A DNA stretch of 36,356 nucleotides from a virus, in the IMG/VR virus record IMGVR_UViG_3300024343_000049, positions 1-36,356 of that record; one strand, given 5' to 3'. Shown one piece after another: positions 4,056 to 29,800 of the stretch. The translations under genes were made by a program, and so were the position numbers. Numbering within the stretch: position 1 is the first letter of the stretch; every line of letters starts with the position of its first letter. Below the pieces are notes generated by a model. That model saw only the letters and a list, made by a program, of their open reading frames with translations. It did not search any database and was not told where the DNA came from.

Positions 4056-4242
4056 CGTCTTCCTTTAACATGACCTTAACATTAGGTGAGCCAAGAGATT
4101 CTAGCTCTCTAGCCATACCCAACACTAACTCTTGATATGCTTCGATTTGGTCTTCCATATCTCGGACTTTATCAATAAGATAGTGTAGGTATAGACCTAG
4201 AGCGATCATTCCTACAATTATCATCCATGCGTATTCAGTCAT
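4042..4242 (-). CDS. Small membrane protein with coiled-coil tail
   Basis: 66 codons. Residues about 5-23 form one hydrophobic segment (YAWMIIVGMIALGLYLHYLI), followed by a heptad-like charged helix (DKVRDMEDQIEAYQELV) and a very acidic end (DDDEE). The arrangement resembles spanin-like or regulatory membrane microproteins, but it sits inside the replication operon, not among the lysis genes. Its ATG overlaps the dCMP deaminase stop (ATGA) and its 3' end overlaps the metallopeptidase start by 14 bases. Function unknown. Confidence 0.65.
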   Translation of the reverse strand: MTEYAWMIIVGMIALGLYLHYLIDKVRDMEDQIEAYQELVLGMARELESLGSPNVKVMLKEDDDEE

Positions 4243-4703
4243 AGTAGTCCCGTGTTAGCTAACTCTTTAGCAGAGAATAGCTTTGTGTTACTTGGTTGTT
4301 CGTTAACTAATACACCAAGCTTACGTAGGTATTCTACTCCCTCCATAGACTTATAATCGTCTCGATATACGACCCGACTAATTCCGCTGCTGTATATAAG
4401 CTTGCTGCAATCAATACAAGGGGCGAGAGTACAATAAAGCGTAGCGTCACTAGTGGAATGGTTACTAGCGGCAACCTTAGCGATTGCAGTAGCTTCAGCA
4501 TGTAATACTGGATTTTGTTGAGTGTTATTATCAGTTCCTCTAGCAGTACCATTATATGAGAAGGAAATAATGTTACTATCCTTAACAATGATAGCACCTA
4601 CCTTTTTATCCGTAGCATAACTCAGCTTAGAGATTACGTTACAGATATCCATGTACATCACATCCCAGTCACTCAAAGTCTTCGTCTTCTGTTGCTCTGT
4701 CAT
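4239..4703 (-). CDS. Deoxycytidylate (dCMP) deaminase
   Basis: 154 codons. Zinc-dependent deamination of dCMP to dUMP, feeding dTMP synthesis. Active-site elements: H68-A-E70 (zinc ligand and proton-shuttling Glu) and P95-C96-I-D-C99. Length matches the family. Start at 4703 is chosen because GGAG lies eight bases upstream; it overlaps the preceding small gene by 35 bases. With the MazG-like, DUF3310 and deoxyribosyltransferase-like genes it suggests remodelling of the dNTP pool. A related nucleotide or RNA-editing deaminase is possible but the context favours dCMP. Confidence 0.85.
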   Translation of the reverse strand: MTEQQKTKTLSDWDVMYMDICNVISKLSYATDKKVGAIIVKDSNIISFSYNGTARGTDNNTQQNPVLHAEATAIAKVAASNHSTSDATLYCTLAPCIDCSKLIYSSGISRVVYRDDYKSMEGVEYLRKLGVLVNEQPSNTKLFSAKELANTGLL

Positions 4704-7919: not shown

Positions 7920-8513
7920 TCAACCTCCTGTGTGGTTTGGTATTGCGGGATGAGTATAGTTTGTATTTTCAAAGTAACTTTCTAAACGTTCATCCATCTT
8001 TTCGTAGTAGTCATCATCATCATAGTCGAGTTCATCAGACATAAAATCTTCTTCTTGATAGTCACCGTTAACGTAGTAACCGATATAGTTAACACCTTGT
8101 TCTACAAACGTGGCATTAACCTTAAAGTTAAAACGTTCAAAGAGTTCTGTATAGAATTTTATCGGGGGACTCCAAGCAGTATCAAAGTAGATTTCCATAC
8201 TATCACCATCAATAGAGAAAAACATATCATCTGATTGAGCATCCCACTTGGTTCCCCATTTTGATAAACACCAGTCGTACCAACCTGAATGACCGTATTT
8301 TTCTAGCAAAGATTCTCTTAGCGCATTCTTTTCATCTGCATCTTCACCACCGAATGAACCAGTACGTGGATCGTTTAGTTCTGGCGGGATTGGAATAAAG
8401 AAAGACATTAGACCACCTCCTTCTTTAAGGTGGGTATCAAGTCTACGAATCATTTGAGCACTTTCATGCTCTGTGGCTGTAATAACTACTGCGTTTGCAC
8501 ACCAATTAGGCAT
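7920..8513 (-). CDS. Api92-like ferredoxin-fold protein (DUF1281 type)
   Basis: 197 codons. The start MPNWCANAVVI, the middle WCLSKWGTKWDA and the segment IYFDTAWSPPIKFY are signature pieces of Api92-like phage and plasmid proteins of unknown function. The C-terminal 55 residues are very acidic (DELDYDDDDYYEKMDE), outside the conserved domain. A truncated relative with the same IYFDTAWSPP segment lies at 10753..11031. The 3' end contains the AGGAGG that drives the next gene. Cytoplasmic. Confidence 0.75.
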   Translation of the reverse strand: MPNWCANAVVITATEHESAQMIRRLDTHLKEGGGLMSFFIPIPPELNDPRTGSFGGEDADEKNALRESLLEKYGHSGWYDWCLSKWGTKWDAQSDDMFFSIDGDSMEIYFDTAWSPPIKFYTELFERFNFKVNATFVEQGVNYIGYYVNGDYQEEDFMSDELDYDDDDYYEKMDERLESYFENTNYTHPAIPNHTGG

Positions 8514-8523
8514 TTTATTTCCT

Positions 8524-8610
8524 TTAAAGTTTTAGTTTCTTTTTAGAGAAGATTATTGCAAGCATCATTTTTAATGATATTAACGACAGTACTACTATCA
8601 ATACTTTCAT
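8524..8610 (-). CDS. Possible 28-aa membrane microprotein
   Basis: ATG 8610 overlaps the stop of the deoxyribosyltransferase-like gene as ATGA. The product is a hydrophobic helix (VLIVVLSLISLKMMLAIIF) with a lysine-rich tail (SKKKLKL), a single-pass topology with positive end inside. It fills the only sizeable gap here. Evidence is coupling and composition only. Confidence 0.45.
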   Translation of the reverse strand: MKVLIVVLSLISLKMMLAIIFSKKKLKL

Positions 8611-9017
8611 AGGTATTCCTCAATAAGTGTTTCACAAGCTTTATCTACGGTAGATCGCCATTCAGTAATTAATGACTCAAAGAAAGGATGGATATGATCA
8701 TCCTCAGCTTTGAAAGCTACAACAGGTTTACCTAGTGTATGTGAGGCATAGAATACTTCCATAGCAGTACCGTGTTTAGCTAGTTTAGGGTCATTAAGGT
8801 TTACTAATAAGATATCTGCTTCCCGAATATCTCGTAGGTCTAACTCGAAGATACGTTTCATGTAACGCTTTTCGAAGTTATGTAGTCTACGACATGGATC
8901 GAGGATATCATAGTGATCTTTTAGCAGAGATTTAGCAGTGTTACGCCAACCAGAAGCAGCATCAGAAGATACATGCTCCATTGGACCTGCAAGGTAGATA
9001 GTTCTACGCTTAATCAT
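8607..9017 (-). CDS. Nucleoside 2-deoxyribosyltransferase-like protein
   Basis: 136 codons. N-terminal IYLAGPM (7-13), then GWRNTAK, a LDPCRRLH segment, D-L-R-D-I-R-E-ADILLVNL (60-74), GTAMEV with E87 in the catalytic-Glu position, and a GKPVVAF strand match the nucleoside 2-deoxyribosyltransferase superfamily (Rossmann-like). Such enzymes exchange or hydrolyse the base of deoxynucleosides or monophosphates (compare DNPH1). In this phage it probably scavenges host nucleotides or removes unwanted dNMPs. Substrate not predictable. Start overlaps the small HTH gene by eight bases. Confidence 0.75.
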   Translation of the reverse strand: MIKRRTIYLAGPMEHVSSDAASGWRNTAKSLLKDHYDILDPCRRLHNFEKRYMKRIFELDLRDIREADILLVNLNDPKLAKHGTAMEVFYASHTLGKPVVAFKAEDDHIHPFFESLITEWRSTVDKACETLIEEYL

Positions 9018-9442: not shown

Positions 9443-9955
9443 TTAGAACATTCCTTCTTCTTCAGTAGCAGGAGTACCCTCAGGCATTTCTTCATCGAAG
9501 TCTACGAAGTTAGTGTTCTTTGGTTCGTACTTAATCAAGTCAACTACTTGTACAGCAGTCAACATTGTAGAGGTACCTTCTTTTGTTACTTTACCGTTAG
9601 GTGCTTTGATCTGATAGTCTTGTTGGAAGACAATAACGTTACCAACAGAACCATTACCGATGGTCTTAGAGTCGATAGGATTTTTAGAAGAATCTACAAC
9701 TCGTACCTTAGCAGCTTCAGAACCATCTTTCTTAATAGCTTTCTTCTTGAGCTGTACTGCAACAGTATTAGGCTCAAAACCAGCTTTCACCTTACCAAAC
9801 TTAGCAAGTTCAGATTCACGCTTCTTAGGAACTTGAATAGAGAGTTCCCATTGATCAGTACCGAAGGGTGATACTGGCTTATCGAGTTTAGCCCAGTACA
9901 ACTTTACTTCTTTGATCATAACGTTAGAACCAGTGTTGTTAATAGAATCAGTCAT
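9443..9955 (-). CDS. Single-stranded DNA-binding protein (T7 gp2.5-like)
   Basis: 170 codons (T7 gp2.5 is 232). The body is a lysine-rich beta protein consistent with an OB fold (KEVKLYWAKLDKP, FGTDQWELSIQVPKKRE, KVRVVDSS). The C-terminus is acidic and ends in an aromatic residue (DFDEEMP ... EEEGMF), the signature used by T7 gp2.5 to contact polymerase and helicase. It is the first gene of the minus-strand replication arm, with AAAGGA before the ATG, a 7-bp hairpin in its leader and its own terminator. Strongly supported by tail and context, though the fold is inferred. Confidence 0.75.
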   Translation of the reverse strand: MTDSINNTGSNVMIKEVKLYWAKLDKPVSPFGTDQWELSIQVPKKRESELAKFGKVKAGFEPNTVAVQLKKKAIKKDGSEAAKVRVVDSSKNPIDSKTIGNGSVGNVIVFQQDYQIKAPNGKVTKEGTSTMLTAVQVVDLIKYEPKNTNFVDFDEEMPEGTPATEEEGMF

Positions 9956-12315: not shown

Positions 12316-12669
12316 TTAAATAGCAATCAAGCCAACAAAGTATGAGTCAGTTGTGTATTTGCGACCATTAACACTAGTAGCAAAGAACACTACCTCTTGA
12401 TTAACCCTTTTAGCAAGGCGATTGTATATATCGCTAGTAGTTAATGTTGTGTTAAAAGTTTTGTTTACCGTCTTTGTTACAACAGCCCTAGTTCTAAAGT
12501 CAGAACAGATAGCAACAACACGATCACCTTGATTTAAGATGATCTTGATTGTCACTGGTTCAGACACAGAAACATCTGGCAAACTGAAGAGCTTGCTTAG
12601 TCGAGCGTTCTCAGCAGAGGAGAAAGCAGAGGTAAAAGCAGAGGTAAGATTGAGAGTAGCCGTTGTCAT
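12316..12669 (-). CDS. Hypothetical protein
   Basis: 117 codons, Thr/Ser/Val-rich, probably beta (TIKIILNQGDRVVAICSDF, RTRAVVTKTVNKTF, EVVFFATSVNGRKY). AAGGAG six bases before the ATG. The 102 bases upstream (12670-12771) are non-coding, with a small AGAGG/CCTCT hairpin at 12719-12733 and a possible 13-codon leader ending in ATGA at this start. Confidence 0.65.
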   Translation of the reverse strand: MTTATLNLTSAFTSAFSSAENARLSKLFSLPDVSVSEPVTIKIILNQGDRVVAICSDFRTRAVVTKTVNKTFNTTLTTSDIYNRLAKRVNQEVVFFATSVNGRKYTTDSYFVGLIAI

Positions 12670-12939: not shown

Positions 12940-13028
12940 TTGACAACTCCTAACCCCAGAAACCCCTGAGGAACGGGACGAGCACAGCGCTCTCCAAGGG
13001 TCTCCGTAGAGACCTATGGGCAGTACTG
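12940..13028 (-). other. Structured gap
   Basis: 89 non-coding bases with GGTCTC-CGTA-GAGACC (12999-13014), a perfect 6-bp tetraloop hairpin, and a GAGC/GCTC element around 12979-12992. No T-run follows, so a terminator is unlikely; mRNA processing or stability elements are possible. Confidence 0.35.
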
Positions 13029-13361
13029 TTACGGCTTACCGTAGTAGTTATTCAAACCCTCATTGATCTGGTCCATTGTGGCATTACGCATACCAGGGTC
13101 ATCGTCATCCAAGAACCTAGAGAGTTCACAATTAATCCTAGCAGCATTAAGCAGCTTTTGCAGAGCCATCTCGGTGACAAGAGGATTGTCAACAGTGTAA
13201 GACTCTATTGCGTAGTCAACGCTCTCCTGTAAAGTGTCACAAGAAACCCTCCAAGCAATTAGAAGGTCACATCCCTGAAGACGATCAACAACGTCTTGGT
13301 CGTACCCATGAAGGGTCAAGGTCGTAATGTCTTGGTGAATAGTGTCAAGTCCGTTTGTCAT
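13029..13361 (-). CDS. Hypothetical protein
   Basis: 110 codons from ATG 13361, preceded by AAGGA at seven bases; an upstream in-frame ATG at 13475 lies inside the neighbouring gene and is rejected. Acidic, helical; contains CDLLIAWRVSCDTLQESVDY and a DDDDPG loop. The stop of the preceding gene provides part of the ribosome site. No family recognised. Confidence 0.6.
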   Translation of the reverse strand: MTNGLDTIHQDITTLTLHGYDQDVVDRLQGCDLLIAWRVSCDTLQESVDYAIESYTVDNPLVTEMALQKLLNAARINCELSRFLDDDDPGMRNATMDQINEGLNNYYGKP

Positions 13362-13371
13362 AGTAATTTCC

Positions 13372-13866
13372 TTAGAAAGGTGCGTCAATAGAATAGTCAT
13401 ACTGCTCACGAGTGAGCCTCCTAGCCTCAGCAAGGTTATGGAAGGCAATGTCGCGGTAATAAGCAACAGCATCACGGTACTCAGCGTCTGAATCGGAGCT
13501 TTTCTTTCTGCTCAAGGTAGGAAGGAACACCCAAGAGTAAGTATCCCACCAAGCAACAAGAGGAGCAGAAGGTTCACGACCAGACATCCAGTGAGGACAG
13601 CCCTTAGACCGCCACCACTTTAAGTGCCTGTACACAGAGTTAGGAATATCACAGCCACGAAGAGCCATATCAAGAATCTCAGATTCAAAGTCACCAGAGA
13701 AAGAAGCGTCTTGCTGGAGATCACCAGCAACAGCCCGAGAGAGCTTAGGACGAGACCGAAGGTAAGAGACAGGCGCATAAGACCCACAAGGATGTGAGAC
13801 CATTACACCATCACGGATGTCAACGCGTTTACGAACAAGAAGGTTAACAGTGTTAAAGCGTTTCAT
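13372..13866 (-). CDS. Hypothetical protein, largest of the accessory cassette
   Basis: 164 codons. Basic N-terminus (MKRFNTVNLLVRKRVDIRDG), Trp-rich middle (HLKWWRSKGCPHWMSG, LVAWWDTYSWVFLP) and an Ala/Tyr helix near the end (YRDAVAYYRDIAFHNLAEARR). GGAG seven bases before the ATG lies in the end of the upstream gene. A is under-represented on the coding strand compared with downstream genes. No family recognised; a host-directed early protein is a guess from its position. Confidence 0.6.
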   Translation of the reverse strand: MKRFNTVNLLVRKRVDIRDGVMVSHPCGSYAPVSYLRSRPKLSRAVAGDLQQDASFSGDFESEILDMALRGCDIPNSVYRHLKWWRSKGCPHWMSGREPSAPLVAWWDTYSWVFLPTLSRKKSSDSDAEYRDAVAYYRDIAFHNLAEARRLTREQYDYSIDAPF

Positions 13867-13867
13867 T

Positions 13868-14035
13868 TTACATCTCCAGAGAGTTAAGACCGAAAGAACA
13901 AGCGAAGGTTAACAACCCACCACAGACGAGGAGCAACAAGCACTCCACAGGCGGGAACATAAACAACGCACCAAGGAAAGCAAGCCCGATAGAGAGCAAG
14001 CCAAGAAGACCGAAGAAGCGAAAGAAGAAAGACAT
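13868..14035 (-). CDS. Small membrane protein, two hydrophobic segments
   Basis: 55 codons from ATG 14035 with TTGGAGG five bases upstream. Two hydrophobic stretches (residues about 3-27 and 32-48: LLSIGLAFLGALFMF and CLLLLVCGGLLTFAC) separated by PPVE suggest a hairpin inner-membrane protein. The coding strand is A-poor (four A in 13921-14040), which itself favours hydrophobic codons, so the membrane call needs caution. One base separates its stop from the next ATG. Confidence 0.6.
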   Translation of the reverse strand: MSFFFRFFGLLGLLSIGLAFLGALFMFPPVECLLLLVCGGLLTFACSFGLNSLEM

Positions 14036-14060
14036 AGGAACCTCCAAGAAAGAAAAAGAG

Positions 14061-14408
14061 TTAAGCAGCTTCAACACCAACGAACCAGGTATCAGGCGAG
14101 TAACCGAACGCAGCACAGAAGCGAACAGACGACCCAACACGAGCCGACAGACGAGAGAACACAAGGTCCACCGAGACCGAACGACCCAAGGCACGAGAGG
14201 CGTACGAAGGACGACAAACACGGACACGACCGTCCGAGCAGACCACAGAGACCGAGTCCACACCAGACACCGACACAGCCACAACCGACACGGGAGCAGA
14301 CCACCGAGCACGAGGAACGGAAGCCAACAGCGAGGAAGGACGAGGAGCAGCGACAGAGGAAGCAGCACCAAGGACGGGAAGAGAAGAAACAAAAGAAGAG
14401 AGAGACAC
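14061..14408 (-). CDS. A-depleted gene with GTG start, unknown function
   Basis: 115 codons if started at GTG 14408. GGAG at 14418-14415 sits six bases upstream, and its A is the only A on the sense strand from 14537 to 14258. The product has a Ser/Val/Ala/Pro-rich N-terminus (MSLSSFVSSLPVLGAASSVA) that could be a secretion signal, then a beta-like body (DSVSVVCSDGRVRVCRPSY, GRSVSVDLVFSRLSA) and a normal-looking end (FGYSPDTWFVGVEAA). The first 50 codons contain no A, so residues needing A are absent. Other frames are open too because stop codons need A; this frame is preferred for its ribosome site and realistic C-terminus. Confidence 0.5.
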   Translation of the reverse strand: MSLSSFVSSLPVLGAASSVAAPRPSSLLASVPRARWSAPVSVVAVSVSGVDSVSVVCSDGRVRVCRPSYASRALGRSVSVDLVFSRLSARVGSSVRFCAAFGYSPDTWFVGVEAA

Positions 14409-14520
14409 AACGAACTCCAGAAGCCACAGAGGAAGAAGAAGCGCGGGACCGCAGGGCAAGACGGCAACACGCAGGAGAGCGACCCACCAGAAGAGGGGGG
14501 ACACGAACGAGGAAGGGGCG
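14101..14520. other. Thymine-depleted (plus) / adenine-depleted (minus) tract
   Basis: By count, the plus strand has six T in 420 bases; 14258-14537 has one (14416). All other bases are common (roughly 38% A, 28% C, 33% G in the part counted). Covers most of the GTG-start gene and its leader. Effect fades downstream along the minus-strand transcript. 14409-14562 holds no gene that I can support. Confidence 0.9.
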
Positions 14521-14562
14521 AACCCAAACCAACACCCTGATTCTTTGACACAGAGAGAGGTA

Positions 14563-14594
14563 CCCCCCAAACATTCCCCCAAAAACCCTCCCCC
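14563..14594 (-). other. G-quadruplex motif in cassette leader
   Basis: Minus strand: G5-A-G3-TTTTT-G5-AATGTTT-G6. Four G-runs with loops of 1, 5 and 7 bases, a canonical G4 pattern, upstream of the A-depleted gene. It would be present in the nascent RNA and in the non-template strand. Confidence 0.6.
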
Positions 14595-14662
14595 AAAAAA
14601 TCCTAGGGGTTACCCAAAACCTAATACAAAATATTACTTTTAGAAATGTAATAAGAGTTATT

Positions 14663-14682
14663 AGTCGGTTCCTAATAGGAAA
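14663..14682 (+). promoter_or_regulatory. Putative phage RNA polymerase promoter E
   Basis: AGTCGGTTCCTAATAGGAAA; one T for A inside GGTACC. It points at the large terminase, with a short leader carrying AGGA. Two other palindromes flank it: TAATAA-GAG-TTATTA at 14649-14663 and ATACAT-TTT-ATGTAT at 14684-14698. The minus-strand cassette promoter must also lie near here but no convincing -10/-35 is seen. Confidence 0.65.
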
Positions 14683-14715: not shown

Positions 14716-16347
14716 ATGAATAATAAAGAGAAGCTAGAAGCGCTGAGAGAACTCAAGAGAAGAGAAAAGCTAGCTGAATACAAGGATAACTTTGAGTTAT
14801 TTGCTAAAGAACAGATTAAGATCTTACCTAAAGATTCTTCGCAGGGCTTTCAGCCATTTACGTTTAATAGTGCTCAAAGTATTGTCAATGAACAAATTGA
14901 GAAACAGTTGAAAGAAACTGGTAGAGTTAGAGCGATTATATTGAAGGCACGGCAGATGGGTTTAAGTACCTATGCTACTGGTAGAGTCTTCTGGAAGAGT
15001 TATTTTAATGCCTATAACAAGTCAGTTGTTATGGCTCATGATACAGCTACCTCGGATGCTTTGTTTAGCATGTCGAGGAATACTATCGATAATATGCCTG
15101 AGCAGTTTAAACCTAAGTTCAAGAAGTCTAATGCTAAGGAGATCATGTTTGAACACAACGATTCAGGTTACAGATTATATACAGCTGGCTCGCCGGAGGC
15201 AGGCCGAGGAACTACACCGACTATTGCGCATCTTTCTGAGGTGGCTTTCTGGACTCACGATGAGAAGATTCTCGCGGGTATGTTCCAAGGTATTTCACAA
15301 GCTAAAGGTACAGAAGTAATTCTAGAGAGTACTGCTAATGGAGTAGGGAATGCCTTTCATAGGTTATGGCAGGGTGCCGTTAAAGGAGAGAATGAGTATA
15401 TTCCTATTTTTGTTCCTTGGTTTCTTATGGAAGAATACCGTAGAGAAGCCCCAGAGGGCTTTGAAAGAACCGATAAAGAAGAGATATTAGTTACTAGGTT
15501 TAAGTTAGATGATGATCAACTTTACTGGAGGAGACTAAAGATAGCTGAGGGTGGTGAGGATAAATTCCGTCAGGAGTACCCCGCTACAGCTGATGAAGCA
15601 TTTATTGTTTCAGGGGCTAACGTATTTAATATTGAGAAGCTAGCTGCTCTAGTACCCCAACCTATATTAGCTTCTAAGGAGTTTAACTTCGAGTCTAATA
15701 TGATGGAAGATAAGGATAGGGGATCAATAGAGATCTTTAAGTATCCTATGTTTGGAGATTCCTTTACTATTGGTGCTGATGTATCTTTAGGAGTAGGTAA
15801 AGATTCTTCTGCTGCAGTTGTTATGAATGCAGATAGAGAAGTATGTGCTGTATATAGAAACAATATGATAGATCCCTCTAAGTTTGGTGATCTTTTGTTT
15901 TACTTAGGTAGGTACTATAATAATGCTCTTTTAGCTGTAGAGTCTAACTCTATGGGTATTGCTACATTAAATAGGCTTACACAGATGCAGTACGTTAATA
16001 TGTACTATCAGACTAAGTTAGCTAATGTTTCTAAAGAAGAAGGTAACAGGATTGGATGGAGGACTACCTCAGCATCTAAGCCAGCTATTATTGGATTCTT
16101 AAAGAATGCTATCGATAATGAGGATATCTGGATTCCTTCTAGACTAGTTATTGGGGAGCTAATGAATTATGTGGCAGATGACTCAGGAAAAACTAATGCT
16201 ATCGTTGGTCATAATGACGATACTGTTATTGCTCTAGCTATTGCCCTTGAAGTTATTAGAACACATGGTGATAGATTAAAGAATAATAATGTACCCTTTA
16301 CACAGAAGATGGGCAACTTTCAACAGATAGAAACTAACTGGCTATAA
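14716..16347 (+). CDS. Terminase large subunit
   Basis: 543 codons. ATP-driven packaging motor and nuclease. ATPase: K77-A-R-Q-M-G-L-S-T85 (Walker A-like), IAHLSEVAFW with E175 (Walker B), ESTANG at 204-209 (coupling motif). RNase H-like nuclease: D355 in GADVSLG, E409 in AVESNS, D501/D502 in GHNDDT. Length and motif order are typical of T4/T7-type large terminases. AGGA before the ATG; promoter E just upstream. First gene of the long plus-strand structural transcript, while its probable small partner is 4.3 kb away. Confidence 0.95.
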   Translation: MNNKEKLEALRELKRREKLAEYKDNFELFAKEQIKILPKDSSQGFQPFTFNSAQSIVNEQIEKQLKETGRVRAIILKARQMGLSTYATGRVFWKSYFNAYNKSVVMAHDTATSDALFSMSRNTIDNMPEQFKPKFKKSNAKEIMFEHNDSGYRLYTAGSPEAGRGTTPTIAHLSEVAFWTHDEKILAGMFQGISQAKGTEVILESTANGVGNAFHRLWQGAVKGENEYIPIFVPWFLMEEYRREAPEGFERTDKEEILVTRFKLDDDQLYWRRLKIAEGGEDKFRQEYPATADEAFIVSGANVFNIEKLAALVPQPILASKEFNFESNMMEDKDRGSIEIFKYPMFGDSFTIGADVSLGVGKDSSAAVVMNADREVCAVYRNNMIDPSKFGDLLFYLGRYYNNALLAVESNSMGIATLNRLTQMQYVNMYYQTKLANVSKEEGNRIGWRTTSASKPAIIGFLKNAIDNEDIWIPSRLVIGELMNYVADDSGKTNAIVGHNDDTVIALAIALEVIRTHGDRLKNNNVPFTQKMGNFQQIETNWL

Positions 16348-21264: not shown

Positions 21265-22344
21265 ATGACTGCACGTACATTCGCCACTGGCGGCCCTAAG
21301 GCTGCTACCGGTACTTCTATGAACGTCTCTGAGCGTGAAGACCTGGCTAACTTTATTTCAATGATCAGCCGTGATGAGACACCATTTATGTCTTCTATCG
21401 GCAAAGCCAAAGCTACTGCTGTGTTCCACGAGTGGCAAACTGACGAGCTGGCTGCTCCCTCTTCTGCTGCTGTTGCTGAAGGCGTTTCTTACGCTACTCA
21501 AGCCGCTGCACAAGGTGCCGAGCCTCTGCGTACTCGTTTAGGCAACTACACCCAAATCAACTCTAAGACCGTTACGGTTACTGGTACTAAGCGTGCCGTT
21601 GATCAAGCTGGTGTTGCTGACGAATACGCATACCAGCTGAAGAAGCGTGGTACCGAACTGCGCCGTGATGTCGAATTCGACATGATCAACAGCTGGAACA
21701 GCTCAAACGGTTCAGGCGTCCGTAAAATGGGCGGCTACCAAGCTTGGGTTAACGATGCATCTACTGCATTGAACGTGTTGGCTACTCCTTCTGAGTACAC
21801 CGCACCTGCAACTGCTGGTGCTGGTACCGCTGGTACTTTCACTACCGTTACTTCTGCTGATAAGACTAGCCTGCAATTGTCACACATTGACACCGTTATG
21901 CAAGCTATCTACGAAAACGGTGGTAAGGCTACTAAGCTGATGGTTTCTCCCGCAAACCGCCGTGTGTTCTCTGCTAAGGCACAGGCTGCAGGTTCATCTA
22001 GCTCTAATGCTGGTGACGGTAACGTTCGCCGTAACGTTGATGCAGACGGTAAGCTGCGTCAATCAGTTGAGATCTATATGTCTGACTTCGGCGACATCAT
22101 GGTTGTTCCCAACTATGTGATGGGTATTGCCAACACTGGTATTTCTGGTTTGGACAACGCTGCTAACTTCACTGCTTTGGTCTATGATCCAATGTGGTTC
22201 AGCTACGCTTCTCTGCGTCCTATGCAAGAAGTTGACCTCGGTCAGTTGGGCGACTCTATCATCGGTCAAATTGTTGAAGAAGGTACACTGGAGTGCCGTA
22301 ACCCCAAGGGCTGCGGTATGATCTTCGGTCTGTCTGGTCAGTAA
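21265..22344 (+). CDS. Major capsid protein (SU10/DUF5309 type)
   Basis: 359 codons. N-terminal MNVSEREDLANFISMISRDETPFMSSIGKAKA and HEWQTDEL, the middle LGNYTQINSKTVTVTGT, KRGTELRRDVEFDMI and SPANRRVFS segments fit the SU10-type (DUF5309) HK97-fold capsid family. Strong AAAGGA site. Its third positions are markedly richer in C and G (CTG, GGC, CGT, ACC) than in neighbouring genes, as expected of the most abundant phage protein. A strong terminator follows. Confidence 0.9.
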   Translation: MTARTFATGGPKAATGTSMNVSEREDLANFISMISRDETPFMSSIGKAKATAVFHEWQTDELAAPSSAAVAEGVSYATQAAAQGAEPLRTRLGNYTQINSKTVTVTGTKRAVDQAGVADEYAYQLKKRGTELRRDVEFDMINSWNSSNGSGVRKMGGYQAWVNDASTALNVLATPSEYTAPATAGAGTAGTFTTVTSADKTSLQLSHIDTVMQAIYENGGKATKLMVSPANRRVFSAKAQAAGSSSSNAGDGNVRRNVDADGKLRQSVEIYMSDFGDIMVVPNYVMGIANTGISGLDNAANFTALVYDPMWFSYASLRPMQEVDLGQLGDSIIGQIVEEGTLECRNPKGCGMIFGLSGQ

Positions 22345-23897: not shown

Positions 23898-26800
23898 ATG
23901 GGATATAATTCAACACCAGGGGCTACTGGAGATGCACCCGATGGCGGTGTATATGATAGCCAAACAAGCCCTACCGAACAAGTTGCAGGTTTAACCCTGC
24001 TTAACAAAACAGCTATTGCTGCAGAAAATGCTCTCAACAGCCAGGAGGCAGCCAAGGCTTCTGAAGTTAGTGCGTTAGCAAGTTCACTAAGCGCTTTGGC
24101 AAGTAAAAATTCTGCTGAAGCAAGTGCAGATGCAGCAGAATCTTCCAATCTACTTGCAAATCAGGCGTTAAACCAAACAATTGTTGCTGCTGATAATGCT
24201 TCTAACAGTGCTAGTGCTTCTGCAATTTCTGCAGAACAGGCTGAAACTTCGAGTACTTTAGCAGGTCAACATGAAGCTACAGCTCTTGACTATGTAACTA
24301 CTGCTGGTACTTATGTTCAGCTCTCCGGTATTAATTCAACTGCTGCAGCCACTAGCGCAACTAACGCAGCTACTAGCGCAACTAATGCGGCTACTAGCGA
24401 GAGTAATGCGGCTACTAGCGAGGCCAATGCCGCTAATAGTGCATCCAGCGCAGCCACTAGTGCGACTAATGCAGCTACTAGTGAATCTAATGCTGACACC
24501 AGTAAATCTAATGCCGCAACAAGTGCTTCTAACGCAGCCACTAGTGCGGCTAATGCAGCTACTAGTGAAAGTAATGCGGCAACAAGCGCAACTAATGCAG
24601 CTACTAGTGAAAGTAGTGCAGAAACTTACGCATCGAATGCTGCAAGTAGTGCAGAGGCTATTGCCGCTATTGAACTTATTGCTGCAGAAAATGCAGAGCT
24701 TGCATCTACCAGTGCAAGTAATGCTGCTACTAGCGAAAATAATGCGGAAACAAGTGAAAGCAATGCTGCAACAAGTGCAAATGCTGCGGCTGTTAGCGCA
24801 TCTGCTGCATTAGCTAGCTCAAACTCTGCATCAACTAGCGCAGGCACAGCTGCTTCCGATGCCTCAACTGCTAGTACAGCAGCAGCTAACGCTTTAACAA
24901 GTGCCTCTAACGCATTTACCAGTGCAAGTAATGCTGCTACCAGCGAATCTAATGCAGCCACTAGTGCAAATTCTGCTTCTACAAATGCGATTAATGCAGC
25001 CTCCTCAGCTTCTAATGCCTTAGCTAGTGAAGGTACTGCTTTATCCGCCAGTAATTCTGCATTAGCTTCTTCAGCTTCTGCTTCACAAAGCGCATATAAT
25101 GCACAACAAAGTTCAGCTAGCGCAAGTACGAGTGCTGCAGCTGCTTTAGTTTCAGAAACTAACGCAAATACTTCTAATATTCAATCTACTAATTCTGCAG
25201 TTAATTCAGAAATTTCCGCACAGGCTTCTGCCGCATCTGCTTTTGCCTCTGCTCAATCGGCAGCTGCTTCAGCACTATCAGCAGAATCAGCAGCTCTTTC
25301 CTATGATCAATTTGATGATCGATACCTTGGGCCTAAAGAAGAAGAACCAACATTAGATAACGATGGAGATGCCTTACTTGAAGGCGCACTCTATTGGAAT
25401 AGTACAACCAAGAAGATGTATGTTTACAATGGTACTATATGGGAAGGCACAGCAATTACCTTGTCAGTATTTGATACTGATGATCTTTCTGAAGGTACAG
25501 CAAATAAATATTATTTAACTTCTAGGGCTACAGAAGATGTTGGTGCAGTAACTTTAGATATGACTGGGTTTGTTAATAGAACAGACAGCACATTATCTTT
25601 TAATACAGTTACAAGAGTATTAACATTAACTCCCACGACTACTACTGTAATTTACTATCGTGGTAAAAAGTATGAAGTATCTTCACCATTAAGTATTACA
25701 ATTACAAATACGTCTGGTGGTAGGTATGTTTATTTTAATCCAACTACAGAAGCCCTTGCTGAAGGTAATATTGGCGATTATGGCGGAATCATTACCAATG
25801 CTCTTGTATCCTATGTTTATTGGGATTCAGTAGCTCAAAAGGCTCTTATCTTTGGTGATGAAAGACACTCTGCGCATAGGGATACCCAATGGCATCTGTC
25901 TAAGCATATTGAACAAGGCTCTGTATGGCGGTCAGGTGGTAATGCTAGTTATACGCTACTTAATGAAGCTAATATTTCACTTGCATTTAGCAACCCAATT
26001 AGTATTGCAGACGAAGATGTTGTACACTCTATTGCTCATTCGGCTACGCCTAGCCTACCTTATCAACAAGTTCTAGAGGGTGCTGCAGTAATACCTACTG
26101 TATACTTAAGTGGAACTACTTATGTTCAGACTACAGCAAGTACTGTACCTTGGGTGGCAGGAACTGCTCTTGCAAGATATAACCCTGTATCTGGTGGTGT
26201 AGGTAGTTTAGTGGATGTTACTAACAACAACTACATGAGCTACTGGATTGTAGCTACTAATGATAGTGTGTATCCTGTTAAAGCAATTATGGGTCATAAT
26301 CAATCTAACAAGATTGAAGATATTGAGGCCGAAACATTTGGCGACTATGGACTTCCAGTCCCTGAGTTAGTTCCAATGTATCATGTTATTCTAAGAGTAG
26401 ACACTGCTTACACTCAAAATACACCACACGTTGCTATTGCTGCTGTGTATAGATTAACAGGTCGTGAAGTGTCTACTGCTACTGCCTTTAGCGCTACAAG
26501 CCACTCTGCTTTAACAGGTAGAGGTGCTGAGGATCAACACCCAATTAGTGCTATTACTAATTTGCAAAGCACTTTAGATACGGAGGCATCTACAAGAGCT
26601 TCAGCTGATACTGCACTTCAAACGGCAATTGATGCAGAGGCGACTGCAAGGGCTACGGCAATTTCAGACGAGGCTTCTGCAAGATCTTCGGGTGATACTA
26701 ATACCTTAACATCTGCTAATGATTATACGGATAGCGCTATTTCTAGTCTTGTAGATACTGCACCTACTACATTAAACACACTTAATGAGTTAGCAGCAGC

Positions 26801-29800
26801 CCTAGGAGACGATGCCAACTTTGCTACAACAGTCTCTACTAATATTGGTTTAAAGGCAGATAAGTCAACCACAATATCTGCAGGTACTGGTCTAAGTGGA
26901 GGGGGTAGTTTAGCTTCTAACCGAACAATTAGTCACGCTGATTCAACTGTAACCGCTGGAACTTATGGTTCAAGCACTTCTATTCCATCTATCACAGTAG
27001 ATGCTAGAGGTCATGTTACAGCGGCTAGTGGTAATTCTATTAGTGTTGGTGATGGTTCGTTCACTGTTAACACCAGCACAGGTTTGTCTGGCGGCGGTCA
27101 GTTAGGTACAGCAAACCAAGCTTATGCTACTTCACTTACGTTGACAAACACGGATCGCGGATCTCAGCAGAACATCTTTAAGAATATTGCCGTTTCGGGC
27201 CAGCCTACAGTTATTGCTGATAATAACAACGATACGTTGACTTTTGTAGCAGGTAGCAATATTAGTTTAACAACAGATCCAGCAGCAGACTCATTAACAA
27301 TTAACGCCAATATTCCTACATACAGTCTTGCTACTTCAACAGTAGCAGGAATAGTTAAATTAGAATCTGACGTAGACCAAACAATAACAGCAAACCCTAT
27401 TTCCGCTGCAATTGGACGCACTTATGGCATCCAGCTTAACGAATTAGATCAGATGGTTGTTAACGTTCCTTGGTCAAATACAACCTACAACATTGCTACT
27501 TCTACTGTGGCTGGTATTGTAGAGTTGTTTAGTGACACAGACCAATCAATAGCAGCAAACGCTGTAACGGCGACTGCTGGCAGAACCTATGGCATTCAGC
27601 TTAACTCTGATAACCAGATGGTTGTTAACGTTCCTTGGTCAAATACAACTTACAATATCGCTACTGCCAATATACCTGGTCTTGTAGAATTGTTTAGCGA
27701 TGCAGACCAATCAGTACCAGCAAACCCTATTTCTGCTGCGGGTAGTCGCACTTATGGTATTCAGCTTAACTCTGCTAATCAAATGGTTGTTAACGTCCCT
27801 TGGGTGGACACCGACACTACTTACAGCCAAGCAACTGCAAGCACTTTAGGTCTGATTAAACTTGAAGATGATACTGTCCAAACAGTAGCAGCAAACGCCG
27901 TAACAGCTACATCAGGAAGAACTTACGGTGTTCAGGTTAATAATTCTGGTCAAGCTGTTGTCAACGTCCCTTGGTCTGACACCAACACCGACACTAATAA
28001 CTATGTGACAAGTGCTGCTTTTGATACAGGTACGGGTGTTCTTACGCTAAACCGTTCTGGTTTGACAGCAGTTACTGTTGATCTTGATGGGAAGTACGCT
28101 GAGTCTAGTCACACCCACAGTTATGTATCAGAAGGCGGAACTACGTTTAGTGGAGAGTACCCTGTAACAGCTCGTACGGCTGCGAACACTATTTACTCTC
28201 ACAGTGGAATACTGTTTAGAGGTTCTGACAGCCGCTTAACAGTTTCGGGGCTTATCTATGCAAGCGGAACTCAAAGAGTCTTTGCTGATAACTACCACCC
28301 TAACGCCGACAAGTGGACTACAGCACGCACTAACACCGTAACCTTAACAGGTGATGTAACTGGTTCAGGTAATGCTTCGGTTGATGGTTCAGGAAACTGG
28401 ACTGTTAGTGTAGCTACCACGGTTGGTGATAACAGCCATAATCACAGCATTGATAGTATTTCTGACGAGCATCGGTTGTTTAACAACATGGGTGCAAATC
28501 ACAACACTACTACCAACTTTAATAGCGTTCCCAATTTCGGCGCTAGGTATGTACAAGCTGGCACTAATGGACCAACTGGCGTAGGATCTCATCAGTTCTA
28601 TGGGTTTACGTTAGGTCTTGGTAATGAGTATTCTATAAGCCAGTATGCCTCTCAACTTTACTGGGCAAGACAGGCTCAAAGTGGCGGAACATACCTCTGG
28701 GCTAGAGACTTAGAAAGCGGTACTTGGGGTTCTTGGCGCAAAATGTCGGCTGGATACGCTGACTCAGCAGGTTCTGCATCTACTGCTGATTATGCTACTA
28801 CAGCAGGCTCGGCGGATCAGATTGATGGATGGGGTTTTGTGAACACTGGCAGCAACAGCGCTGTTAACGCAGACACAATAAATAGCAACGGCATTAGTTA
28901 CTACACAGCAGGTGTTACAAACTTCAGTGGCAATTCAACAGATGGAGCCTTGTACTCACAGCGTTACAGCGATTCTTGGCAACATCAAATTGCTGGTGAC
29001 TATCGTTCTGGTCAGATTGCTTTACGTGGAAAAAACAACGGCACATGGCAAGCATGGCGCACTGTCGTAGATTCTTCTAACGTAGGCACCTATGCGGCTT
29101 TACCGGGGCATAGTCACAGCAACTACGTCACAACTACTTACAACTCAAGTCTGAACAGCGATAGCCGTAATAGTCGTGGTGTTACTCGTTTGTACCGCCG
29201 TGATGATAATAGTGACTACAGTGTGCAAACATACTGGACAGGGAGCTATTGGCGTTTGTATGGGTATTACGGAGATAGTGGCCACGCTGATGTTCAAGTA
29301 GGTTATGCTGACAGCGCTGGCTATGCTTCATCTGCTGGCAGCGCGGGTAACGCAACCACGCTTAACTCAAAAGCCTCCAGTGCTTTTCACCAAAGAATTC
29401 ATTACGGCACTACAGCGGGTAACTCTGGGTATTACAAAATTAAAATACTCCCTGCTACTAGCTGGATGATGTCTTTTATTATTCGAGTTTATCAAAGCTA
29501 CGGGAGCTTTGATATTCGAGTAAGCGGGTATAACTATGGTGGAAACTACTGGTACTCACCGGAAGCTAGTCTTATTGATGGGTCAAGCACAAGCATTGAA
29601 GTTCGTTTTGGTTATGACAGCGCATATAACCTTTGGGTAGCAATTCCTGCGGCATCTTACACTGGCCTAGATGTTGTTAGTGTTGTCAATGGATATACGC
29701 AGGTTGACGGTGATTACGCAGATCAATTTTCAATTACGCATCAAACAAGCCTGACAGGTACGACACAAACTACTGTGACTGCGTACAGGCCTTTGAAGTA

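Follow-up and report, generated by a model that had tools for sequence, protein, structure and literature searches.

Exclusion of adenine from the start of a presumed early transcript in a family of aquatic bacterial viruses

The locus described here raises the question of what could exclude one nucleotide from one strand of viral DNA, in every sequence context, at the start of a single transcript. The window, comprising the whole 36,356-nt stretch of virus record IMGVR_UViG_3300024343_000049, is a 36-kb fragment, the relatives of which measure ~58–64 kb. By direct count, plus-strand T occurs once in the 280 nt of 14258–14537 (at 14416), a scarcity with a binomial P of ~1e-40 (log10 P values from -40 to -53), and the lowest count in any 280-nt stretch outside the tract is 49. 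There are six T in 14101–14520 and four in 13921–14040, followed leftward by 6–12 per 60 nt at 13441–13800 and 21 at 13021–13080, all counts on which the initial annotation had relied and which were reproduced exactly. The tract is due to neither chance nor misassembly. The assembly error considered at the outset is excluded by the presence of the tract in dozens of independent contigs and in a cultured isolate, the Roseobacter phage CRP-7.

Early and replication genes run leftward in the window, and the terminase and structural genes run rightward (Table 1). Since the tract opens the leftward side, with a sharp terminase-side edge at ~14537/14538, the sense strand is the one that lacks A; the edge motif, the relatives and the gene layout concur with the original proposal that this is the start of a leftward message. 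One to three copies of the promoter-like element are conserved upstream of the tract in relatives, and we infer its promoter function from sequence only. The depletion does cover 14061–14537, the extent first assigned to it, but these limits do not hold: the depleted feature is wider, with strong depletion in the leader and genes 1 and 2 and partial depletion in genes 3–6. Fourfold-site A in successive leftward genes is 0/96, 0/29, 4/85, 6/45, 5/31 and 14/62, and then ~0.36 (94/259 in the DNA polymerase gene, 0.23 to 0.52 in the remaining leftward genes), so that synonymous-site A recovers from 0 to baseline across roughly 2.2 kb. The expected fade along the message hence extends to fourfold sites, and is not a by-product of protein composition. 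Searches of the window for Rfam families and tRNA genes returned none, and tandem repeats of 21/84 nt and 165 nt (24337–24997 and 27423–27803) lie within a 2206-aa tail-fibre-like gene.

Table 1. Features of the adenine-depleted locus and associated genes in the window.
Feature	Position	Strand	Remarks
Phage-promoter-like element TTTCCTATTAGG	14671-14682	-	T7-like RNA polymerase promoter candidate; upstream of tract, same direction
G-run-rich spacer (GGGGGAGGGTTTTTGGGGGAATGTTTGGGGGG)	14548-14600	-	Terminator-like hairpin
Edge motif	14538-14557	-	CTCTCTGTGTCAAAGAATCA in the window, CTTTGTGTGTgAAAAGAATCA in the family; A depletion begins here
A-free untranslated leader	14409-14537	-	Small GGGTTCGCCC hairpin, C-runs, structured region, Shine-Dalgarno GGAG
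Predicted leader hairpin	14441-14472	-	Comparable stem-loop with A-U, G-C or G-U pairs in relatives
Gene 1, A-purged	14061-14408	-	GTG start; 115-aa predicted OB-fold protein; fourfold A 0/96
Gene 2	13868-14035	-	55 aa, hydrophobic, probably membrane protein; A 7%, fourfold A 0/29
Gene 3, partly depleted	13372-13866	-	164 aa; fourfold A 4/85
Gene 4	13029-13361	-	110 aa; fourfold A 6/45
Gene 1 paralogue, normal composition	12316-12669	-	A 28%, fourfold A 14/62; 28% amino-acid identity
Large terminase, divergent landmark	14716-16347	+	Neither A- nor T-depleted
dCTP/dCMP deaminase	4239-4703		
Nucleoside 2-deoxyribosyltransferase-like gene	8607-9017	-	

A terminase search of viral contigs returned 184 relatives, of which 80 were kept. 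The T-poor tract was found at nearly every relative locus extending far enough upstream, sharp on the terminase side and fading on the opposite one. The edge motif occurs in 69 of the 69 family sequences examined, with near-invariant columns, and an exact 22-mer search of the whole collection detected it nowhere outside the family. Across 56 dereplicated genomes, sense-strand A stands at 0.4–1.2% at +40 to +100, 5% at +100 to +200, 10% at +200 to +300, 15–16% at +300 to +500, 28% at +900 and 34–37% from 1.5 kb on, a mean slope that largely mixes genomes of differing tract length. An A-poor untranslated leader of ~100 nt occupies the same place in nearly all of these genomes (A is 0.9% from +20 to the start codon), in many of them the purge extends to the first gene, and tract length varies from ~100 to 900 nt within limits that follow gene boundaries. 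The purge ends abruptly after the leader in L015, L069 and L073 and after gene 1 in L018, L024 and L036; in the leader-only genomes (L108, L144, L015, L069 and L073), depletion reaches only as far as the start codon or its vicinity. Neither the identity of a gene nor its distance was accepted as sufficient cause: in short-tract genomes, normal genes such as MYYVYSKK.. still have 35% A at +256, whereas copies of gene 1 remain A-free at +600. In one relative, a large presumed virion protein of 1408 aa (L088:9113-13339) shows a weak match to the N4-type virion RNA polymerase profile phrog_2206 (E 3e-4), which presumably falls outside the catalytic part of that enzyme.

The cultured phage CRP-7 (MK613349) encodes a terminase 59% identical to that of the window, and carries the tract at the join of its record ends (57339–58095; A 21/757, including a 200-nt A-free stretch). 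Five uncultured members of its group also carry it, and the group features of CRP-7-like podoviruses (terminase, portal, capsid, DNA polymerase and T7-like RNA polymerase) were found. CRP-7 shares with the window family the same edge, leader and A-free first gene, and by eye the leaders of both groups are alike (TTTGGGTTyGyCCCTTC...CCCCCC), but the CRP-7 tract lies ~3 kb from the terminase, the intervening genes differ and no dCMP deaminase was found. The passages of the CRP-7 paper that were searched (PMC6918029) contain no discussion of an A-free tract. An annotated coding sequence, CRP7_gp72 (57271–57966), runs antisense through the tract and is probably an annotation artefact, since a strand that lacks T cannot contain stop codons. 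Within the CRP-7 group, CRP-7, L119, L137 and L140 have an A-free first gene, whereas its A content is intermediate in L144 and normal in L108, and an A-free leader precedes it in each. Relatives with normal A at the same locus, which the initial annotation had set against its own reading, thus exist only locally: the homologous leader has regained A in L112 and L149, and the orthologous first gene of L108 has normal A behind its A-free leader, while depletion persists elsewhere. These exceptions indicate that A exclusion is selectable and reversible.

The association of the tract with other modules can be traced in contig G015 (L153; L185–L187), the terminase, portal, capsid and scaffold of which are ~46–60% identical to those of CRP-7 (terminase 60%). 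No matches to the CRP-7 DNA polymerase, RNA polymerase, primase or deoxyribosyltransferase were found in this contig, nor was an A-free tract upstream of its terminase. By its gene content G015 appears to be a natural module swap relative to CRP-7, and the joint absence of module and tract suggests that the tract goes with the replication/transcription module. The fragment containing the relaxed L112 leader (contig G016) retains those of the CRP-7 replication genes that lie within it.

The extent of the purge is best seen in gene 1. In its A-poor copies fourfold-site A is 7/1786, compared with 39.6% in normal genes, and 188 of the 198 codons that still contain A have no A-free synonym; in the window copy, all A is confined to D, E, Y, T or stop codons. 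Many copies start with GTG or TTG, the ATG having been changed. Among the pairs listed, synonymous divergence is 0.13–0.29 and N/S 0.13–0.42, values indicative of purifying selection on the encoded protein, and at synonymous sites C, G and T have replaced one another freely. Relative to a paralogue 1.7 kb downstream in the same genome, A-poor copies show replacements that include K by R, I by V, and N or T by S. Where the gene is purged, the first protein hence appears to be rebuilt from about ten kinds of amino acid. AlphaFold predicts a confident OB fold for the window protein (pLDDT 81, and >90 over most of residues 30–115). A structural search with this model returned only generic OB-fold matches, none of them significant; they include OB-fold subunits of bacterial toxins, a resemblance of predicted fold only that would imply no function for gene 1, and no match was found in PHROGs. 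The model of the CRP-7-type protein is weak (AF2, pLDDT 59), and hhalign did not join the alignments of the window-family and CRP-7-type proteins. BLAST ties the first genes of L108 and L144 to the CRP-7 family, and that of L108 also resembles the window family by eye. Small early families, such as those at +448 and +783 past the edge motif, have an SD.R.R or DD..R motif in common and are possibly additional paralogues of gene 1.

Several observations bear on whether this composition arose by selection or by mutation. Across the 56 genomes the ratio C:G:T remains nearly constant at ~29:31:41 while A ranges from ~10 to 36%. The rise of G at fourfold sites is only modest (0.15 to 0.22 of C+G+T). 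At positions of A in the relaxed L112, the bases found in L119 and L137 are G, T and C at 24:22:5. This replacement of A by the three other bases in proportion speaks for selection against A, and not for the strand-biased A-to-G change listed among the possible causes at the outset, which has to be abandoned. Among close relatives A is involved in 28/531 differences within the tract, compared with 62% outside it; the tract also shows no excess of C–G differences and less divergence overall, a pattern that makes A-to-N hypermutation unlikely. A mutational origin, either through adenine-targeted hypermutation akin to that of a retroelement or through A-to-G editing of an exposed strand, would be compatible with a gradient from the transcript start and with the replacement of A by all three other bases, but it is highly improbable given the lack of specific G enrichment, the absence of a hypermutation signature from close pairs and the persistence of conserved A in D, E and Y codons. 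Diversity-generating retroelements produce adenine-specific change within a defined stretch, and to that extent resemble the tract. They were rejected as a cause since A-to-N change with a diversified protein was not found: no reverse transcriptase (RVT) family appears among the Pfam matches listed for G001 and CRP-7, there is no template copy, the fade has the wrong direction and the protein is apparently under purifying selection. Selection against A is hence very probable, and the start of the leftward early transcript appears, from these comparisons, to be kept A-free by purifying selection acting nucleotide by nucleotide.

The nature of the depletion constrains which property of A is avoided. 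All NAN contexts are depleted, whatever the neighboring bases, and the effect is independent of reading frame, involving noncoding leader and gene alike. This overturns the earlier suggestion of escape from MazF-type toxins, mRNA interferases that cleave at ACA, because depletion is not confined to any such motif. Avoidance of RNase E-type (generic AU-rich) sites was likewise rejected: the GNTTT consensus is not avoided in the leader (observed/expected 1.11) and T makes up 40% of it, but runs of five T are avoided there (0.42 of expectation, versus 1.86 elsewhere). Economy of ATP in early messages, also raised initially, is doubtful because the major capsid gene (21265–22344, plus strand), presumably the most expressed, keeps 11% fourfold A, compared with 25–38% in other late genes and 0% in gene 1; the capsid value resembles the codon bias of a highly expressed gene. 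Protection from UV, whereby the template strand of the first gene would be spared thymine dimers in sunlit water, would suit aquatic phages and a template-strand-specific effect, but its probability is negligible: pyrimidine-flanked, dimer-prone template T is retained more often than purine-flanked T, both near the start (0.22 vs 0.09 of baseline) and further on (0.63 vs 0.42), which excludes such dimers as the cause.

Other explanations place the hazard in the DNA template or in the supply of nucleotides. Modified or replaced template T, such as deoxyuridine, could expose the template to uracil-DNA glycosylase or stall RNA polymerase, and a T-free template could allow transcription of the first gene ahead of any protection; the proposal seems unlikely. 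It accounts for strand and context independence and for a cumulative fade, and agrees with the presence of a dCMP/dCTP deaminase in 12 of 12 near-full genomes, of a nucleoside-deoxyribosyltransferase-like gene in the same 12 and in CRP-7, with the absence of thymidylate synthase and dUTPase among the Pfam matches listed for G001, and with the lack of any UDG family match in 14 records. DSS3_VP1 and PBS1 have been described as phages with dU-DNA (PMC12697855), and in them, as in the window family, a dC deaminase adjoins replication genes; a lack of T on one strand might conceivably serve to avoid dU. However, neither DSS3_VP1 nor PBS1 (scanned in all but its last 2.2 kb) contains an A- or T-free tract, and dU-DNA was therefore rejected as a general cause. 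The deaminase was not found in CRP-7, which has one of the strongest tracts, and a template hazard gives no account of depletion that ends near the start codon in leader-only genomes. The HD-family dTMP phosphatase known from dU-DNA phages was not found in the window family: no HD family (dTMP phosphatase/dTTP pyrophosphatase) is present among the best 25 of 28 Pfam families for G001 or the matches listed for CRP-7, and the open reading frame at 9443–9955, considered as a candidate, resembles instead a single-stranded-DNA-binding protein. As regards these genes themselves, the deaminase matches in G004, G006 and G007 each contain one in-frame stop (TAG, TAA and TAG, respectively), and of 50,697 phage records only those of CRP-7 and a Moorella phage contain a match to the deoxyribosyltransferase-like gene (8387–8830 in CRP-7).

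A DNA-level element, such as a replication origin, packaging site or genome end that needs one T-free strand, for instance to block priming, is unlikely. The conserved motif, G-runs and promoter-like element adjoining the tract are consistent with it, as is the link to the replication/RNA-polymerase module, neither module nor tract being present alongside the capsid genes of G015. Four of 57 contigs (L026, L034, L051 and L075) begin 12–30 nt upstream of the terminase start (P ~2e-4 against uniform ends), a pile-up that is possibly a physical genome end and that would also fit. Such an element does not, however, predict a length of ~100 to 900 nt set by gene boundaries or a synonymous-site fade over 2 kb, and in the zone from 40 to 200 nt GTC and CTG are depleted to no greater degree than the majority of T contexts, with the retained Asp codons preferring GAC (template GTC) over GAT. 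Transcription independent of ATP, in which the first message would be made from GTP, CTP and UTP only during depletion of ATP by infection stress or an ATP-destroying defence, is decidedly unlikely. It would produce a single-base, context-free, sense-strand effect that starts at the presumed transcription start and fades along the message, but ATP would still be required for translation, codons in which A cannot be avoided persist, leader-only genomes would derive no benefit and no related nucleotide sensor was found.

The explanation tentatively favored here is the inactivation of exposed early RNA at its adenines. The first message would be made while phage RNA is scarce, and each exposed A would be a liability if RNA in a cell just infected were inactivated at adenines, whether by a defence enzyme of the host or by a host-shutoff activity that the phage encodes; since phage populations are huge, even a tiny cost per A may suffice. 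The untranslated leader would be the most exposed part and hence almost always A-poor, ribosomes would shield coding parts, which would be purged only in some lineages, and the A left in leaders would lie mostly in stems. In predicted stems, 0.73 of residual leader A is paired, compared with 0.57 in shuffles (n=59, phylogenetically non-independent), and this location, together with depletion that ends near the start codon, favors a hazard to exposed RNA over one acting at the time of transcription, although the excess in stems may merely reflect selection on the hairpin. On the other hand, the stems themselves are almost A-free, a loss that a purely single-strand-specific attack would not require, the avoidance of U-runs in the leader is not predicted by attack on RNA, and no A-directed RNA enzyme was identified in host or phage. 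Systems of a comparable kind do exist. MazF and CmdT both act on A-containing single-stranded RNA, as the proposed activity would, and both would select against A in messages, but each depends on its own context (ACA for MazF), whereas every A in every context is avoided in the tract. CmdT, an anti-phage enzyme, modifies the adenine in GA of single-stranded RNA (PMC11618068).

A literature search yielded no precedent for the removal of a single nucleotide from one strand of a gene up to the synonymous limit. It is possible, though less likely than not, that the locus represents a natural three-letter message, in which leader and first gene have been re-encoded without A, at the expense of changes in the protein, to escape an adenine-dependent hazard in the newly infected cell. 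If so, this way of excluding a base would have no described precedent, and would point either to an attack on A that is still to be discovered or to a hazard of template T. The pairs of gene 1 and its paralogue, and the orthologous series of L108, L144 and CRP-7, provide natural experiments in making proteins from about ten amino acids, and the cultured pair of CRP-7 and the RCA roseobacter FZCC0042 makes the cause directly testable. A large group of aquatic bacterial viruses thus appears to be under strong selection against a single RNA base, and the fact that this pressure hits every A but is confined to the start of one transcript would mark a specific vulnerable step in early infection.
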